A DNA stretch of 22,539 nucleotides, taken from positions 1-22,539 of IMG/VR virus record IMGVR_UViG_3300017782_000247, one strand, 5' to 3'. This DNA is from a virus. Below the pieces are notes generated by a model, which did no database searches, was not told the DNA's origin, and worked only from the letters and a program-made list of their open reading frames with translations. The position numbers and the translations under genes are program-made. This document shows, one piece after another, positions 1 to 9,022 of this stretch (positions are counted from its first letter, which is position 1; every line of letters begins with the position of its first letter).

Positions 1-544
1 AGACACTTGCTAATTCCTCTTTCGCATAATTTTCTAAATCAAATCCAAGATTTGATATTTTATCAAAATTATTATCTACGTCCAAATTATTAAACTTAAC
101 ATCAAAGGCATTATTGTAAAATACCTTTATAAATTCAGAAAAAGTTTTTATTTGATTGTTATTGTACAGTGTTAAAGGCTGTTTAAAATTACCTAAATTT
201 GACCTCTTTCCAGAAAAGCAAATAACAATGTTAAATTCATTCGTACTATTGGGATAAAAAAATGATTCAGAACTCATTTCTAAATTAGTAAAGACATTAC
301 CAGAAGTATTAATATAAAAGTGAAAGGTGTTTAATAAATTAGATGCATCAAGATCCCTTAATGATTCTAAAAAACTTCTGTTGTCTTTGTTTACGTAAGA
401 AAATGCACTAATGGAAAAAACAGTTTTTTTAGTTTTTTCTATATTGTACATAATTTCATTCTTAATATGTAATCTATCTACAATAAGTCTGTTTTTTTGG
501 TAATTTTTTATTCCAAGATCAAAGTTAAAGGAAGGTGCAATCAT
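1..544 (-). CDS. Partial gene; amidase-like (T7-lysozyme/PGRP) fold without zinc ligands, probable baseplate hub accessory
   Basis: The frame is open from an ATG at 544 to the window edge (181 codons; C-terminus missing). ATG overlaps the gp5 stop as ATGA, and AAGGAC lies just upstream, so the two genes are translationally coupled. Residues about 40-180 line up with the T7 lysozyme/amidase_2 fold from memory: VFSISAFSY against IFVHCSATK, FHFYINTSGNV against YHFIIKRDGTV, FNIVICFSGK against NSIGVCLVGG, and SNLGFDLENY against ACPSFDLKRW. The three zinc ligands of T7 lysozyme (His17, His122, Cys130) appear to be replaced by non-ligand residues (Ser/Ile, Asn and Asn/Leu), so an enzyme is unlikely. 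The position after gp5 suggests a structural role at the hub, perhaps peptidoglycan binding. The coding call is strong; the fold assignment is inference. Confidence 0.8.
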   Translation of the reverse strand, partial: MIAPSFNFDLGIKNYQKNRLIVDRLHIKNEIMYNIEKTKKTVFSISAFSYVNKDNRSFLESLRDLDASNLLNTFHFYINTSGNVFTNLEMSSESFFYPNSTNEFNIVICFSGKRSNLGNFKQPLTLYNNNQIKTFSEFIKVFYNNAFDVKFNNLDVDNNFDKISNLGFDLENYAKEELASV

Positions 545-1008
545 ACTACTTGTCCTTCAGTAGTGACAGGATTTTCTGTTGTTTCAACAGAAGTCGATTC
601 GCCCTGACCCGGACCAGAACGATTAAACTTAATTATACTTTGAATATCAGAAACTGAATCAACAGGACTTGGTGTAATTCCCGGAAGAGAACCTAAAATG
701 CAGGGATGTTGTCTGTGACGATCCATCCAAAATCCTACTACAAATGAACCTACTTCAAGACCCATCGTCTCTCCGATATCATGAACATCAGCCCCTGTAT
801 TTGGCATGAGTACGGTAGCTAAAGGCAAGTCTGCTAAAGGTGCTAATTCGTCGTGTAATCCTAAAATACGAATTGCAACACGCAATAGTGTATCAGCATC
901 TCTAGATTCTTCTGCCGTATACACTTCATCAACGTATGCAAAAAACCAAGTAAAATTATTGCCATAAAAATCTGACTGAAAACCTGCAAGATCAGTATTA
1001 TTACTCAT
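541..1008 (-). CDS. gp5: gp5-like baseplate hub protein, OB-fold domain only (no lysozyme)
   Basis: This 155-residue protein resembles the N-terminal OB-fold domain of T4 gp5, the central spike base that sits on the gp27 trimer. Residues about 20-111 carry the landmarks: WFFAYVDEV, LLRVAIRILGLHDE, then GSFVVGFWMDRHRQHPCILGSLPGI, matching the gp5 pattern of a barrel ending in 'V-G-F-x-D ... P-x-I-L-G-x-x-G'. After residue 111 there is only a short Ser/Thr/Glu-rich tail, whereas T4 gp5 (575 residues) continues with a lysozyme and a beta-helix. Neither is encoded here or immediately downstream. It lies 29 bases after gp27, its structural partner in T4, and overlaps the next gene by ATGA. The hub role is well supported by both sequence and context. 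Confidence 0.85.
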   Translation of the reverse strand: MSNNTDLAGFQSDFYGNNFTWFFAYVDEVYTAEESRDADTLLRVAIRILGLHDELAPLADLPLATVLMPNTGADVHDIGETMGLEVGSFVVGFWMDRHRQHPCILGSLPGITPSPVDSVSDIQSIIKFNRSGPGQGESTSVETTENPVTTEGQVV

Positions 1009-2835: not shown

Positions 2836-4112
2836 TAAGCAAATCCACTTCTACTAGCCTGATAATCACCTCTGACTCTACTGGTTATTTCCATAATTGT
2901 TAATGACAACGCCACAGAAGTAGGAGCACCAGACTTAAAAAAGAATGGTGAACCAGAAGCAGAATAGTCTACAGTTATATCAGTTATAACACTCTCAAAT
3001 ATTGGAAAAATAATGAGACCGTTTGGCGATCTAATATCAAAACGTGTCAATATTGATGGGTATCTAATAATATTTAAAAATGGATCAATAAGCTCTGGAT
3101 GACTGTGTTCTTTTAGAAGTTGTATAACTTGAAATATAGATTGTGTCCCTGATTCTGAATCTGCATATAGCTTCCATCTAAAATTAAATGTTCTCGGCAT
3201 GACACCAGAAAACTGCTGAACCATGCTATTGTTGAACGCAGTATTAAATCCTTGCACACCCGCCATATTACCAACAGCGCCTATCAAGTTATTTAAATTT
3301 CCCGGCTGTTCATAAAAGCCTTTAGCTTGGTTAAACAATGCCTTCATCTGTGACATACCGCCCTCTATATCGGGAGCTTGTTTTTCACCTAAAGCTCTTA
3401 GAGTTGTTGCAGTAGCATTCATTATGGCATCTTGAATTGCACCACCAGCGCCTTTATGCTTACTCTCGTAACCAATATTCATATTTTCCTGAAGGTTATC
3501 AGGTGTGGGTAGACCGATTGTTCCAGACGAAGAAGATACAGAACCACCACCTCCACCGCTACCTCCTGCTCCCCCTACTCCTGCGCCAGAGGATCCAAAG
3601 CCAGTTCCTCTAAGAATTGGACTATCTAATCTCTGTACACCCGAAGAGTCACTTCTAGTACCACCTCTCTCAAAAGACGCTGGTGAACTTACTCGATTAG
3701 TTGAAAAACCACTATTAGAGTCTCTTTCTCTAAGTCTTTGTAAGTATGCTTCTGTGGTATTTTCCTTACTATCATAATCCACAGAGAACATCTCTTTTAA
3801 CGTAATAATATTATCACCCTTTATTCCTATAGAGGATGATCTATTGGTACAATTTCTGGCGTCAATAATTTGAGGTACTTTACGTCTACCAGATTTTTTA
3901 GACTTATTTTTTCTCTTATTACTGTAACCTTGTGCAGCACTTTTATTTCCAGATTTTTTATTAGGATTTGAAGTGACATAACTTCCAGATCCGGTTTTTA
4001 CAAATCCTCCGCTAGAAGTAGTTACTAGATTAGTCCCACTCGGCTTAGCATTAACAGATCTGCCGACGCCCGGACGTATAGTATCGCCAAAAGTATCAGG
4101 TCTTCTAACCAT
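2835..4112 (-). CDS. gp48: gp48-like baseplate tail-tube cap with long disordered N-terminal extension
   Basis: The last ~120 of 425 residues carry the gp48/gp54 signature: PRTFNFRWKLYADSES (residues about 306-321), then a 'HPELIDPFLNIIRYPSILTRFDI' element and a final VITDITVDYSASGSPFFF ... ALSLTIMEI strand pair. In T4 gp48 caps the baseplate and starts the tail tube. The first ~220 residues are low complexity: a Lys/Arg/Ser-rich patch (about residues 52-80) and a Gly/Ser linker (GAGVGGAGGSGGGGG, about residues 176-190), both absent from T4 gp48 as I know it (364 residues). AGGAAG lies before the ATG. It is the first gene of the leftward baseplate operon, with a late-promoter box about 92 bases upstream. 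gp54 is an alternative name. Confidence 0.8.
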   Translation of the reverse strand: MVRRPDTFGDTIRPGVGRSVNAKPSGTNLVTTSSGGFVKTGSGSYVTSNPNKKSGNKSAAQGYSNKRKNKSKKSGRRKVPQIIDARNCTNRSSSIGIKGDNIITLKEMFSVDYDSKENTTEAYLQRLRERDSNSGFSTNRVSSPASFERGGTRSDSSGVQRLDSPILRGTGFGSSGAGVGGAGGSGGGGGSVSSSSGTIGLPTPDNLQENMNIGYESKHKGAGGAIQDAIMNATATTLRALGEKQAPDIEGGMSQMKALFNQAKGFYEQPGNLNNLIGAVGNMAGVQGFNTAFNNSMVQQFSGVMPRTFNFRWKLYADSESGTQSIFQVIQLLKEHSHPELIDPFLNIIRYPSILTRFDIRSPNGLIIFPIFESVITDITVDYSASGSPFFFKSGAPTSVALSLTIMEITSRVRGDYQASRSGFA

Positions 4113-4135
4113 TTGTCTTCCTACTAAATAATTAC

Positions 4136-4573
4136 ATGCCAGCTAAAAAGGGTTACTTTAAACCAAAAAATTACAGTAAATATAAAGGAGACCCAACTAA
4201 GATTATTTATAGGAGTAGTTGGGAAAAGATGTTCATGGGATACTTGGATAACAACCCAAGTGTCGTTGAATGGTCTTCTGAAGAGTTTTTTATACCTTAC
4301 AAAAGTCCTGTGGACGGACGTGTGAGAAGATACTTTCCTGACTTCTACGTGAAGAAGAGAAACAAACAGGGCGGTATTGATATTCTTGTTGTAGAAATCA
4401 AACCAAAATATCAAACAGAAAAACCAGATAAAGTTAAAAAAATAACTAAGCAATATGTAAATAAGGTTAAGACATACGCTATTAACGAGTCTAAGTGGAA
4501 AGCTGCAGAAAGCTTTTGCAAAGATCGAAAGTGGAAGTTTCAGATTTTAACAGAGAACGAGCTAGGACTCTAA
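4136..4573 (+). CDS. gp4: gp4-like head completion protein, TnsA/PD-(D/E)xK nuclease fold
   Basis: This 145-residue protein resembles T4 gp4 (gp50/gp4), which completes the filled head before the tail is attached. Residues 25-70 contain YRSSWEKMFMGYLDNNPSV and WSSEEFFIPY ... GRVRRYFPDFYV, strongly conserved in T4-like gp4. A nuclease core is visible: PD at 68-69 and E87-I-K89 in VVEIKPK, giving a PD-(D/E)xK arrangement as in TnsA-like endonucleases. The gene is divergent from gp48 with only 23 bases between the starts and no good ribosome binding site, and it is directly followed (no gap) by the next gene. Confidence 0.88.
   Translation: MPAKKGYFKPKNYSKYKGDPTKIIYRSSWEKMFMGYLDNNPSVVEWSSEEFFIPYKSPVDGRVRRYFPDFYVKKRNKQGGIDILVVEIKPKYQTEKPDKVKKITKQYVNKVKTYAINESKWKAAESFCKDRKWKFQILTENELGL
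4204..4211 (-). promoter_or_regulatory. T4-type late promoter box (TATAAATA) for the leftward baseplate operon
   Basis: The minus strand reads TATAAATA exactly, the consensus late promoter of T4-like phages recognised by the gp55 sigma with gp33 and the clamp. It lies inside gp4 on the opposite strand, with the predicted start about 85 bases upstream of the gp48 ATG. This is the only perfect copy I found on the minus strand, and it is placed at the head of a late operon. gp33 is encoded in this window; gp55 would lie elsewhere. Confidence 0.7.
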
Positions 4574-5236
4574 ATGGCAATAACCTTAAGATCATTTAAA
4601 GAGACTGTCGAAAAGGTAGTAGGAAAAAAGCCAAAAGACGTATTCCACTCAATTCTTGTCGAAGGCTTAGAACAAGAGATTATCCCTGCTCGAACCAAGA
4701 AGGCACGACAATACTATCGTGGTTTCGGAAGCATGTCCGCACAAAGTTCTAAAGATACAATATTTAAAAACAAAGATAGAATCGCAAAGCTTCCAACTAT
4801 TGGAAAAATGTATTTTTTTCAATACATCCCAAAAATGATTAAAGAGCTACCATATCACGATAGGTTGCCAATGATCTTTCCAATAAACACTATAAATAAT
4901 GGGATAATGGGCATCAACCTACATTACTTACCGCTCGAACCCAGAGCAGCTTTGATGGATGCACTTTACACTTTGTCTAGTGACAATTCATACGATGATA
5001 AAACAAGGTTAAGAATAAGCTATGAGATTTTGAAGGTTGCATCAAGGTTTAGCATGTTTAGGCCGTGCATAAAAAAGTATCTGTTTAACCACCTTCAATC
5101 ACCATTGTATGAAGTTAAATCATACGAATGGGATATTGCCCTATTCTTACCAGTTGAAATGTTTGCTGTTGGAAATGCATCACCGAATCCGGGTATCACT
5201 GGAATCGCACAAAAAGAATCGCTCGATAGGATATAA
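4574..5236 (+). CDS. Conserved T4-like structural-type protein, unassigned
   Basis: This 220-residue protein starts on the base after the gp4 stop, so it is translationally coupled to gp4. I recognise the pattern from marine T4-like phages (LPYHDRLPMIFPI, GINLHYLPLEPRAALMDALY, RPCIKKYLFNHLQS, EWDIALFLP) but not a proven function. There is a basic N-terminus with KTIKxxR-type segments and no signal peptide or membrane segment. In T4 the neighbour of gene 4 is gene 2 (DNA end protector), so a gp2-like role is possible from position only. A perfect TATAAATA box lies within the gene (4891-4898). Confidence 0.85.
   Translation: MAITLRSFKETVEKVVGKKPKDVFHSILVEGLEQEIIPARTKKARQYYRGFGSMSAQSSKDTIFKNKDRIAKLPTIGKMYFFQYIPKMIKELPYHDRLPMIFPINTINNGIMGINLHYLPLEPRAALMDALYTLSSDNSYDDKTRLRISYEILKVASRFSMFRPCIKKYLFNHLQSPLYEVKSYEWDIALFLPVEMFAVGNASPNPGITGIAQKESLDRI
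4891..4898 (+). promoter_or_regulatory. Possible internal late promoter (TATAAATA)
   Basis: Exact TATAAATA on the plus strand inside the preceding structural gene, about 340 bases upstream of the tail-tube-like gene at 5238. It could boost tube protein and gp26 expression relative to gp4. It also encodes residues TINN, so chance occurrence in AT-rich coding DNA cannot be excluded. Confidence 0.4.
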
Positions 5237-5237
5237 G

Positions 5238-5909
5238 ATGGGCTTTAGTATAGAACAATTTAAAGGAAGATTTAAAAACGACTTTGCTAAAGCCGCTTTG
5301 TTTGAAGTCTTTTTCGCAAGCTTTGCCGATCTTAGATTTCAAGCCACTAGTGCTTCTCTACCCGGATCGAGTATTGTAACCGATACGTTTTCTAATGGTC
5401 CGTACAGGCCATTAGAAAAGGCAGTATCAAGATCTTACTCAGGCGTTGGCGTGACCTTCATATTAGACAACGAAGGGCGCTGTCTTTCAGCGCTGAACCA
5501 GATGATGGATAGCGTTGTAGATCCTGACGGGTTTGTTGGATATTCTTCACAATACGAATCTGCAGTTAATATAAAACATTTCAATCAGTCAGGTGGTGTC
5601 GTAACTAGTTACACACTTAACGATTCATTTGTATCGTCTTTGTCTGATGTAACACTTGATTGGAGTAGTGGAGACGCTATTGCAACGGTATCTTGTATTA
5701 TAAAATTTAGATCCTATTCTATGAGTGCTTTTGGTGGAGGATCTAGCACCATATCATCTTTTGGTGAAAGAGGTTATGTTAATAAAGTCGAAATGCCTGA
5801 TAGAGCACCCATTATTACTGAAAGACCAAAAATCGGAAGCACTAGCTCTGGTTCGCAGTCGGGAAGACCACCAATTGGAAGTATTAGTTCTGGACCACAG
5901 ATTGATTAA
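5238..5909 (+). CDS. Tail-tube-fold protein (gp19/gp54-like)
   Basis: I chose the ATG at 5238, one base after the previous stop, giving 223 residues; a longer frame from 5109 would run through the preceding gene. The core (about residues 1-175) has the tail-tube barrel pattern: RFQATSASLPGSSI, then GPYRPLEKAVSRSYSGVGVTFILD, a helix LNQMMDSVV, and a late DVTLDWSSGDAIATVSCIIKF strand pair. Members form or initiate the inner tail tube. The last ~45 residues are a low-complexity tail with two imperfect copies of P-x-IGS-x-SSG-x-Q, which tube proteins normally lack. It is not clear whether this is the main tube (gp19, 163 residues in T4) or a tube initiator such as gp54. Confidence 0.8.
   Translation: MGFSIEQFKGRFKNDFAKAALFEVFFASFADLRFQATSASLPGSSIVTDTFSNGPYRPLEKAVSRSYSGVGVTFILDNEGRCLSALNQMMDSVVDPDGFVGYSSQYESAVNIKHFNQSGGVVTSYTLNDSFVSSLSDVTLDWSSGDAIATVSCIIKFRSYSMSAFGGGSSTISSFGERGYVNKVEMPDRAPIITERPKIGSTSSGSQSGRPPIGSISSGPQID
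5388..5419. repeat. Perfect 11-bp inverted repeat inside the tail-tube-like gene
   Basis: Arms TTTTCTAATGG (5388-5398) and CCATTAGAAAA (5409-5419) are exact reverse complements around a 10-base loop, early in the coding region. The same CCATTAG core is present in the gp27 repeat at 1370-1406. Role unknown. Confidence 0.8.
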
Positions 5910-5919
5910 AGGATGAAAA

Positions 5920-6609
5920 ATGTTACCAAAAATTCAGACTGCTGTTTTTAAGACAACGATTCCGTCTTTAAACAGAGAAATTTTATTGAGACCCTTTTTA
6001 GTTAAAGAAGAAAAAATTCTTCTTATGGCCAAACAGTCAGGCGAAAAGGATCAGATTTTTATTGCTATCGAACAAGTTATTCAGAATTGTGTTGTTGATG
6101 AAGCTTTAGACATAAGCAAGCTCCCATACTACGATATTGAATATCTCTTCATCCAGCTAAGAATTAACTCTATTGGCGATTTCATCGAATTGGAAATTAC
6201 TGATCCAGAATCTGGCGAGAGAAAGAAAGCTACTGTAGATTTAAACGACGTAAATGTCGTATCTTCTGATGTTGGTAACAAAGTAATTCTTAATGAAGAT
6301 ACTGCATTGATTATGAAGTATCCTACGCTAGATGAGATTTCTAAAGTTACAGCAGAAAATGATGTTGAAGCATTTTTTGATACGTTGAAGTATTCTATCA
6401 ATTCAGTTTTCCATGACGATCAATCATATGAATTCTACTCCTACTCAAATGAAGAACAGATCGAATTTATTGATTCGTTAAGTGTATCGAATATTGAGCA
6501 ATGTAAAGATTTTATTTCTTCTATGCCTTCAGTTGAAGTTGAAGCAAGATGGAAAGATGAAAAGAAAGATAAATCATTAACGTTGAAGGGTATCAACAAT
6601 TTTTTTTAA
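5920..6609 (+). CDS. gp26: gp26-like baseplate hub assembly protein
   Basis: The 229-residue product matches the T4 gp26 family (208 residues; T4 base plate protein family). The N-terminus is diagnostic: TTIPSLNREILLRPFLVKEEKILLMA (shown here only in part, residues about 12-38), followed by DIEYLFIQLRINSIGDFIEL at about residues 68-87. In T4 gp26 acts in hub assembly and is needed with gp51 and gp28/29. AAAGGA six bases before the ATG is a good ribosome binding site. The gene ends on eight consecutive T's followed by TAA, and the -1 frame continues into the gp51-like frame, so a longer fusion product of about 290 residues is likely. Confidence 0.87.
   Translation: MLPKIQTAVFKTTIPSLNREILLRPFLVKEEKILLMAKQSGEKDQIFIAIEQVIQNCVVDEALDISKLPYYDIEYLFIQLRINSIGDFIELEITDPESGERKKATVDLNDVNVVSSDVGNKVILNEDTALIMKYPTLDEISKVTAENDVEAFFDTLKYSINSVFHDDQSYEFYSYSNEEQIEFIDSLSVSNIEQCKDFISSMPSVEVEARWKDEKKDKSLTLKGINNFF
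6600..6606 (+). promoter_or_regulatory. Putative -1 ribosomal frameshift site T TTT TTT before the gp26 stop
   Basis: In the gp26 frame the last codons are AAT TTT TTT TAA, so a canonical heptamer T_TTT_TTT sits directly before the stop. Slipping one base back puts ribosomes in the frame that encodes the gp51-like segment to 6791 with no stop between. A short GTTG/CAAC pairing lies downstream (about 6614-6629), but no strong stimulatory stem was seen. Confidence 0.6.
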
Positions 6610-6791
6610 TACTGTTGGGTCATAACAACCTTAAAAATTACTTCAAACTAATTTTTAATATGGCCCAGCATCATGGATACAGTATATCAGACATTGAAAA
6701 TATGATACCTTTTGAACTTGAATTATATTCTTCCATGCTGATTGACTATTTGGAGCAAAAGAAAAACGAACAGGAAATGGCTAGAAGATAA
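6606..6791 (+). CDS. gp51-like hub assembly segment, probably expressed as a gp26 frameshift extension
   Basis: Sixty-one codons in the -1 frame relative to gp26, ending at TAA 6789-6791, which overlaps the next ATG by one base. The encoded pattern NYFKLIFNMAQHHGYSI followed by DIENMIPFELELYSSMLIDYLEQ is strongly protein-like and recalls the small assembly protein that follows gp26 in T4-like marine phages. The only ATG in frame (6660) would cut the conserved NYF..IF start, and neither it nor the TTG at 6615 has a ribosome binding site, so frameshifting from gp26 is the simplest route of expression. The name gp51 is from position; T4 gp51 is much longer (249 residues). Confidence 0.65.
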   Translation, partial: LILLGHNNLKNYFKLIFNMAQHHGYSISDIENMIPFELELYSSMLIDYLEQKKNEQEMARR

Positions 6792-9022
6792 TGGCAGACG
6801 ATTTACCACCAATTCCACAGCAAAGATCTTATCCCAAGATGCTGGCTAGTGAAAAATTAATTAACTTTATAAAAGATAAAGAAAAATTTTATTCTGAGCC
6901 TTACAGCGATTTTAAGCAATGGAGCATTGGCTACGGATCTTATGCAGGAAAACTAACTGGCGATCCAACAATAAAATCTATAACAAAAGATGGTGCTGAT
7001 AAACTCCTAAAACAGGAGATAAAAAAGTATGAAGCAAATGTAAACAAATTTAATACATTTTATAATTTTACACAAAATGAATTTGATGCAATGGTTTCGT
7101 TTGCTTACAATCTTGGTAGCATTAATCAGCTAACAGATAATGGTAATAGAAGCAAAGAACAAATACTTCAAAAAATGCCCGATTACAACAAGGCAGGTGG
7201 AAAAGTTGCAGGTGGCCTTGTAACTAGAAGAAAAGAAGAGGTCAGCATTTTTAAGGGAGAAAACACTCCTAAAGCATATGATGATAGTAATGTAGCTGCT
7301 TCATCACTTAGAGATGAAAATGCAGATGATCCTATAGCTAAAATTATTAGCAAAAGCAGGGATGGAAAAAGTACGTCAACAAATGAAGATCAAGATTATC
7401 CTGTATTAACTGAAAGGACTGAACAACTGAAAGGAGAAGTAGCAGGTGGATTAGTTAGCCTTGCTGCAAACATGTTTCCCGATAGGGTTGCTGCTGCTAT
7501 CACTAGTTCTCTTCCTTCAAATATTGCAAGTCTACCATCGGCTTCTAAAATTTCAGGTGAAATTTTGGAGTCAATACGATCCGGTGAAGGGGTTAAGTCA
7601 TTTACTTCGGCTGTTGAAAAGATTTCTTCGGCAGATACTCCCGTAGGCAGACTTCAGGCTATCGGTGATATTGCAACAGAATATGAAGCAGACATCAAAG
7701 CTCTTTATCCCGACTTAGGAAATATAGATTTTGATGAAGTTATTCCAGAAATTATAGATCTTTCCATTACAGAAAGTCCTAAAGAAAGAATAATAAAAGC
7801 AATAGAATTAGCGGAAAAAACAGGAATAGGCTTAGAAGAGATTGATTCTTTAAGTATACCCGGCTTTCCTTCCATAAGAGAAATGGTAAAAAATCCAGAT
7901 AAAATTCCAGATGTCAAAGACAAACGTTTTGGCATTCCTGTACCGGGAGCAAAAATAGACAATTATCTAAGAGATCTTTTGGGGTCGGACGATATTGCTG
8001 TTCAAAAAGAAGCAATTGAAAATTTAAAAAATTCAGCAATTGGTGGGCTTTTTGAAGGATACCAAGCTGAAACTTTTTTAACTGGATCTCTAGAAGATAT
8101 TGTAAAAACACCACTCGTAACAGAGCAGCTTGGTAATTTACCCGAAAGACTTCTTACTGCAGAAAGACCTAAAGCAATTGAAACTGCGTTGACACGATTT
8201 GCTGGTGATATAATTTCTGAAGAGACTGATGGAGCTATAGACAGGAACACCTCTCAAACACTTCTTGCTGGTGGTACAGAAGAAGAAGCTAAAAAAATGA
8301 GACAAACAATTGGAGGTATGGCCCTAGACAATTTCATCGAATCAAATCCAAATCTTGCAGGTATCGTTCAATGGTTCTCGGAGAACAAAGAAATAATCAC
8401 CCTGCTTGGTTCTGCTGGCGCTCTGGCGGGTCTGTCTGGTCTTTTAGGTGGTGGGGCTTTAGGAGGATTTGCAGCAGGTGCTGGTGGTCTTGCTGGCGTT
8501 AGAATGCTTCTTGGTAAAGATGGTTATGATGAGTTTCAAGACATGATCAAGACAGCAGCATCTCCAGTGTTTGACTTTGCGAGCGAAGCTTTAGAATCCT
8601 CTGGATTGGCTGATATTCCGGTGATTGGCGCAATGCTCAAAGGAACTGTTGGTATTGGTAAAGAGAATCCATTAGCGGCAACTGCAGCACTAACTGGAAA
8701 CTTTAGTATGGCGGCTGGTCTTATGGCAGGACAATCTGGTATCGATATCTTCGATCAAGAAAAGACGGCGGCTGGTCTTCTGGCAGGTTTGACAGACAGT
8801 TTTAATGGCTTCTCAACGCAGGTTCAACAAGATCTTGCTGCTGTAGGAAATACAAACGACGACCAAAGACAAACGCCTACTAGTAAAGATGGCAATCCCG
8901 CAGAGCAAACTGGACAACCAGCGGCTGGATCACAAAGGTCTATGTATGATCCATTAGCGGTAACAACGTATCAAGGATTTGGATATTCCGGCCCCGGCGG
9001 AATTGTGAGCGGCGGAACTTAA
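6791..9022 (+). CDS. Tape-measure-like tail protein with N-terminal GH24 lysozyme domain
   Basis: 743 residues. Residues about 17-155 are a glycoside hydrolase 24 lysozyme: catalytic E31, D40 eight residues on, then SIGYGS where the family has TIGYGH (T to S, H to S), then TQNEFDAMVSFAYNLG and GGKVAGGLVTRRKEE, all family hallmarks. Middle residues 200-530 are helical and acidic; residues about 533-572 form a Gly/Ala-rich hydrophobic stretch (TLLGSAGALAGLSGLLGGG and on) of the kind tape measures insert into the membrane. It directly follows the gp26/gp51 pair, the place a tape measure holds after its frameshifted chaperones in many tailed phages. T4 gp29 (590 residues) has no lysozyme. Enzyme domain: strong; tape-measure role: inference. 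Confidence 0.82.
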   Translation: MADDLPPIPQQRSYPKMLASEKLINFIKDKEKFYSEPYSDFKQWSIGYGSYAGKLTGDPTIKSITKDGADKLLKQEIKKYEANVNKFNTFYNFTQNEFDAMVSFAYNLGSINQLTDNGNRSKEQILQKMPDYNKAGGKVAGGLVTRRKEEVSIFKGENTPKAYDDSNVAASSLRDENADDPIAKIISKSRDGKSTSTNEDQDYPVLTERTEQLKGEVAGGLVSLAANMFPDRVAAAITSSLPSNIASLPSASKISGEILESIRSGEGVKSFTSAVEKISSADTPVGRLQAIGDIATEYEADIKALYPDLGNIDFDEVIPEIIDLSITESPKERIIKAIELAEKTGIGLEEIDSLSIPGFPSIREMVKNPDKIPDVKDKRFGIPVPGAKIDNYLRDLLGSDDIAVQKEAIENLKNSAIGGLFEGYQAETFLTGSLEDIVKTPLVTEQLGNLPERLLTAERPKAIETALTRFAGDIISEETDGAIDRNTSQTLLAGGTEEEAKKMRQTIGGMALDNFIESNPNLAGIVQWFSENKEIITLLGSAGALAGLSGLLGGGALGGFAAGAGGLAGVRMLLGKDGYDEFQDMIKTAASPVFDFASEALESSGLADIPVIGAMLKGTVGIGKENPLAATAALTGNFSMAAGLMAGQSGIDIFDQEKTAAGLLAGLTDSFNGFSTQVQQDLAAVGNTNDDQRQTPTSKDGNPAEQTGQPAAGSQRSMYDPLAVTTYQGFGYSGPGGIVSGGT

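Follow-up and report, generated by a model that had tools for sequence, protein, structure and literature searches.

A putative -1 frameshift at the end of gene 26 linking gp26 and gp51 of T4-like phages

In lambda G/GT and in the other tail assembly chaperone (TAC) genes that use frameshifting, the chaperone gene lies between tail-tube-like and tape-measure genes and has a -1 slip close to its 3' end; a short and a long form result, the latter with an extra C-terminal domain (Xu, Hendrix and Duda 2004; PMC5009743). According to the review by Atkins et al. (PMC5009743), G-T frameshifting is widely conserved except in T4. The T4 proteins gp26 and gp51 are listed as hub assembly chaperones; gp51, whose function is unknown, is essential but does not form part of the particle (PMC3004832). 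In addition, the gp51 proteins of cyanophages and marine vibriophages have been reported to miss about 200 N-terminal amino acids, and Aeromonas phage Aeh1 to be without gp51 (Sullivan et al. 2010, PMC3037559). In the part of that paper's text available to us the word "frameshift" was not found, and no paper reporting a gp26/gp51 frameshift was found in the open-access literature, with subscription journals mostly not covered. A chaperone function for these proteins is not a wholly new idea, since the record of Acinetobacter phage Stupor names gp26, gp51 and gp28 "tape measure protein assembly chaperone".

The gene 26 locus and its putative slip site

We analysed a stretch of viral DNA of 22,539 nucleotides, here called the window (Table 1). 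Its gp26 scores 155 bits against PF12322, for which the curated cut-off is 24.5, and the 3' end of the gene reads ATC AAC AAT TTT TTT TAA, with the stop codon at 6607-6609 and a run of eight T in all at 6600-6607. A sequence-only reading of this DNA had noticed that T TTT TTT is followed at once by the stop and had suggested a programmed -1 frameshift into a gp51-like frame of 61 codons. Both observations hold: the heptamer meets the stop at 6600-6609, and nearly all of the -1 frame can be aligned to phrog_634 ("baseplate hub assembly catalyst", gp51) with E=3.2e-21, covering positions 58-113 of the 121 in the profile. In the genes of the window, with their roughly 6,300 codon positions, in-frame T TTT TTY is present twice, and only the occurrence in gp26 adjoins a stop. 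This rarity, along with the conserved position of the heptamer across relatives, argues that its presence at the end of gp26 is not due to chance.

Table 1. Features of the gp26/gp51 locus in the window
Feature	Position	Strand	Basis
Tail-tube-like protein (gp54/gp19 type), upstream gene	5235..5909	+	phrog_45 "tail tube" E=7e-26
gp26, short form of tail assembly chaperone, 229 aa	5920..6609	+	PF12322 E=2.3e-45, phrog_150 E=4.7e-48
SD-like element GAAGGG within gp26, 9 nt upstream of heptamer	6585..6590	+	sequence
Putative slippery heptamer T TTT TTT	6600..6606	+	sequence; same place in relatives
gp51 domain, -1 frame, 61 codons + stop (6789-6791)	6606..6791	+	phrog_634
Putative long form, 290 aa (229 + 61)	join(5920..6606,6606..6791)	+	base 6606 re-read
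5' arm of predicted 12-bp stem, 6 nt past heptamer	6613..6624	+	fold of 6607-6676
Predicted inner 10-bp hairpin, 6631-6640 with 6649-6658	6631..6658	+	fold of 6607-6676
3' arm of predicted 12-bp stem	6659..6670	+	fold of 6607-6676
Candidate tape measure protein, 743 aa, N-terminal phage lysozyme domain	6791..9022	+	PF00959 E=2e-22; position, length

The window was compared with 190 loci from IMG/VR and public phages (191 sequences), and a gp26 profile search of this set returned 206 gp26-type open frames. In this first survey, 175 of the 206 open frames, and 175 of 176 single-gene loci, had in-frame T TTT TTN at 0-3 codons upstream of the gp26 stop. The sequence-only reading had named conservation of the heptamer and the -1 frame in related phages as a check on its proposal, and this check was passed. 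Of the 31 open frames without the heptamer, 30 come from the T4 lineage, in which 26 and 51 are genes of their own, and the remaining one from Pseudomonas phage Cygsa01. PhiW-14, Bhz51, Aeh1 and SRB7757, which were found after the first survey, have T TTT TTC too, and the frameshift site is present in KVP40 and phiAS5. Concerning Aeh1, the gp51 reported missing is an unannotated -1 frame after T TTT TTC (L199, 2660-2870).

From the heptamer-bearing loci we drew 96 representatives with less than 80% identity. The first Phe codon of the site is TTT in all 96, compared with 67% elsewhere in gp26 (naive P ~4e-17), and the codon before the Phe pair ends in T in every one of them (naive P ~1e-20), while the second codon of the site is TTT in 49, TTC in 45, TTA in one and TTG in one. 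These P values are only naive, since the representatives share ancestry and were chosen among loci that have the heptamer. Even so, which positions are fixed and which are free is as predicted for tandem tRNA-Phe slippage.

Signals of two kinds flank the heptamer, and the comparison establishes them as parts of a conserved cassette. An SD-like tetramer is present within 18 nt upstream in 60 of the 96 representatives, compared with 37.0+-3.9 expected from synonymous resampling; the tetramers mostly end 8-11 nt ahead of the heptamer, and close to the site GAG is overrepresented relative to GAA (P=1.2e-5). Downstream, the RNA of the window at 6607-6676 is predicted to fold with -21.1 kcal/mol (z -5.4), the stem beginning 6 nt past the heptamer. 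Among the relatives, 70-nt segments starting 0-6 nt past the heptamer have a mean z of about -2.3 to -2.4, compared with -0.5 to 0.0 for segments away from it, and the anomaly is confined to the region just downstream. A stem of at least 7 bp starting 3-10 nt past the heptamer was found in 73% of representatives versus 32% at control places. The stem partners differ between lineages; across 22 window-type relatives, 75% of an 11-bp register is paired, compared with 25-39% for slid registers. Covariation of the stem is weak in these 22 relatives (three pairs with double changes, not above shuffles), which may be expectable where a stem overlaps coding sequence, and Rfam gave no relevant match. 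A stimulatory-type RNA structure is predicted at canonical spacing, although stimulation itself, like any role of the SD-like element, is inferred.

In the E. coli dnaX cassette, an SD lies about 10 nt upstream of the heptamer and a stem-loop about 6 nt downstream. The layout in the window is alike, whereas dnaX has A AAA AAG and is another gene with another purpose. Unlike sites of the lambda G/GT type, the gp26 sites have T TTT TTY 0-3 codons from the stop, with an SD-like element and a stem-loop present.

Short and long forms as two genes in the T4 lineage

In coliphage T4, gp26 and gp51 belong to the same families as in the window, but they are encoded by two genes on opposite strands, and thus no frameshift is possible between them. 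T4 gp26 matches PF12322 along its whole length. In T4 gp51, which has 249 aa, residues 1-201 match PF12322 (E=3.9e-52) and residues 147-246 match phrog_634 (E=1.2e-23). We also built a profile of the fusion, gp26 plus the -1 domain, solely from frameshift phages. This profile runs unbroken through the junction onto the gp51 proteins of Aeromonas phage 31 (2e-18), Krischvirus (3e-15) and Stupor (3e-14), and also spans the junction in gp51 of T4 (3.5e-11) and RB43 (1e-9), whereas its alignment to T4-lineage gp26 proteins ends at or before the junction. The comparison demonstrates continuity between the fusion and T4 gp51. Judged from these profile matches, T4 gp51 is a full gp26 followed by a C-terminal -1 domain, and the two T4 proteins are the counterparts of the short form (gp26) and the long form (gp51). 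The "short gp51" of cyanophages and vibriophages (PMC3037559) is the same -1 domain, and the part it misses is gp26.

When a tree was built from the gp26 part, T4-lineage proteins of both forms fell in one clade (100), beside KVP40. The simplest reading of this tree would be an ancestral frameshift followed by duplication within Straboviridae, although the exact place of the duplication is uncertain because of long branches. The sequence-only reading would have been refuted by related genomes in which gp51 has its own start. Apart from the T4 lineage, whose gene codes for the whole long form, no such case was seen, except possibly K475, YC and Cygsa01, which have TAATG at the overlap.

The Pseudotevenvirus RB43 (L103, 3501-4794) carries the long- and short-form genes in tandem on the same strand with the long one first, whereas those of T4 are opposed. 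In one T4-like contig (L095, about 3980-4760) gp51 is split into two frames, reflecting either a sequencing error or a real change. In the alignment, the gp26 proteins of KVP40 (L097, 1656-2504), Astolliot (L098, 1707-2504) and phiAS5 (L099, 2435-3214) have a mid-protein insertion relative to the window.

The -1 frame and alternative explanations

Among the 93 representatives with a complete -1 frame, this frame extends for 56-69 codons from the heptamer, and a PxE motif is found at -1 codon 36 in nearly all of them, with no insertions. Substitutions in -1 codons 7-19, past the gp26 stop, number 101/68/254 at codon positions 1/2/3 in 66 independent pairs, and 21/9/43 in the 11 pairs in which neither member has a start codon in the first 20 codons. 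The third-position excess, seen also in the start-less pairs, means that the -1 frame is coding ahead of any possible start. Taken together with the phrog_634 match and the fixed register, the comparative evidence indicates that the -1 frame is protein-coding from the heptamer onward and under purifying selection. ATG, GTG and TTG are absent from the first nine -1 codons in 48 of the 93 representatives and from the whole stretch before the PxE motif in four, and an SD-like sequence combined with an early start occurs in just one. In the window, the only possible starts before the PFE motif are TTG 6615, ATG 6660 and ATG 6702, each without an SD-like sequence, as had been said of the possible -1 starts from the letters alone.

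These counts bear on the possibility that gp51 is a separate small gene, with its own start used through termination-reinitiation or coupling at the gp26 stop. Public records do annotate gp51 separately, yet the annotated starts vary from phage to phage; and while about a third of the representatives have an ATG among the first nine -1 codons, some of them overlapping the gp26 stop, conserved residues and coding periodicity appear already upstream of the candidate starts. The TAATG of Cygsa01, K475 and YC, which lack the heptamer, would suit an own start, but such a start needs no T TTT TTY, no upstream SD and no following stem, and in T4 gp51 the domain is fused. For heptamer-bearing phages we rejected an own start or coupling, given how few starts there are and that coding extends upstream of them; overall a separate gp51 gene appears improbable.

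Slippage of RNA polymerase on the T run, with length-changed mRNAs encoding the fusion, is a still weaker candidate. Eight T, as in the window, are enough to allow transcriptional slippage, but the run is just six T in 47 and seven in 37 of the 96 representatives, which is short for slippage, and transcriptional slippage was rejected on these lengths. What stays constant is the phased heptamer, the free third base of the second codon, the 3' RNA structure and the SD, which are marks of the ribosome; we consider polymerase slippage very improbable. Lastly, it could be argued from the absence of expression data that no fusion is made and that the -1 frame is merely a leftover, decayed or without relevance. 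Purifying selection on the frame, a register fixed across very distant phages and the essential nature of gp51 in T4 (PMC3004832) make this scarcely conceivable.

Some phages have the -1 domain without the heptamer. In Ackermannviridae (PhiSH19, phiEa2809, YC and IMG/VR relatives), Vibrio K475 and Cygsa01, the -1 domain is contiguous through the stop, and T TTT TTY is lacking (L193 2760-2990, L200-L213, L194, L195, L196 and L107). The Kuttervirus-type junction ATT TTC ATT TAA TTTTTGAAATTGATTT is strongly conserved and is an overlap without ATG.

Inferred chaperone function and the proposed mechanism

In the window, a tube-like gene, gp26/gp51 and a long gene follow one another, an order that fits tail assembly chaperone loci. 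No sequence similarity was detectable between the gene at 6791-9022 and T4 gp29; genes at the same place in HTVC008M and phiM12 are annotated as tape-measure-like. The tape-measure identity of the gene is an inference that rests on position and length. We also observed that the gp5-type OB protein of the window (541-1008) has only 155 aa with no lysozyme domain seen, and that the candidate tape measure protein starts with PF00959.

The AlphaFold model of gp26 has a pLDDT of 90.7. A Foldseek search of this model against the PDB gave no significant match (E about 0.7), and a search of the PDB with the gp26 sequence profile gave nothing useful. With VIA-align, the N-terminal domain of gp26 matched 3fgx_A (Z 8.1) and the HK97 TAC 2ob9_A (Z 7.8), the next unrelated entry having a Z of 4.2. 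Residues 1-85 superpose on 2ob9_A over 83 residues at 3.6 A with 8% identity over the aligned residues, and gp26 has further domains. The structural comparison brings out a resemblance of the predicted N-terminal domain to the HK97 tail assembly chaperone, which is suggestive and at the edge of the noise level of the tool. No match of gp26 to any other TAC family was found in Pfam or PHROGs scans. For a model of T4-type gp51, Foldseek found no significant match in the PDB, and a second look placed HK97 TAC only at Z 3.7.

Although there are no translation data, sequence comparison gives strong support to the view that T4-like phages, marine and other, very probably make a second, longer tail chaperone through a slip where gene 26 ends. 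We are confident that gp26/gp51 is best viewed as one gene read two ways, in which a -1 slip would add the gp51 domain, and that the T4 lineage duplicated the gene and lost the slip. The programmed -1 frameshift suggested earlier for the window gains support from the SD-like element, the 3' stem-loop, the coding periodicity of the -1 frame, the in-frame long form represented by T4 gp51 and the suggestive TAC-like fold of predicted gp26. Most ribosomes would reach the gp26 stop and produce the short chaperone of 229 aa, comparable to lambda gpG. Some may pause at the slippery run, through SD-like contact about 9 nt upstream and the strong stem-loop 6 nt downstream, whereupon two tRNA-Phe would shift back by one on T TTT TTT, bypass the stop in the -1 frame and append the gp51 domain, giving a gpGT-like long chaperone of 290 aa. 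Both chaperones are presumed to act on the tape measure protein encoded next; the chaperone function, including binding of the tape measure, is inferred. In the coliphage T4 lineage, duplication of the gene and loss of the slip would have left gene 26 for the short form and gene 51 for the long form. That slippage occurs, and at what rate, is likewise inferred. U_UUU_UUU is a weaker slip site than A_AAA_AAG in E. coli (PMC5009743), and the efficiency of frameshifting may therefore be low.

If this interpretation is correct, most T4-type phages, including abundant marine ones, would join the general G/GT scheme, as far as sequence evidence reaches. It appears likely that most T4-type phages inherited the G/GT frameshift from a common ancestor and that coliphage T4 lost it through duplication, that T4 genes 26 and 51 both derive from a single frameshifting chaperone gene, that the function of gp51 is that of gpGT, and that the T4 "exception" vanishes. 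This would explain the approximately 200 aa missing in cyanophage gp51, the apparent loss of gp51 in Aeh1 and the need of T4 for both gp26 and gp51. It would also imply that many public records give gp51 a wrong start or omit it. Overall, the gp26/gp51 locus provides an example of a recoding event that was apparently replaced by gene duplication.
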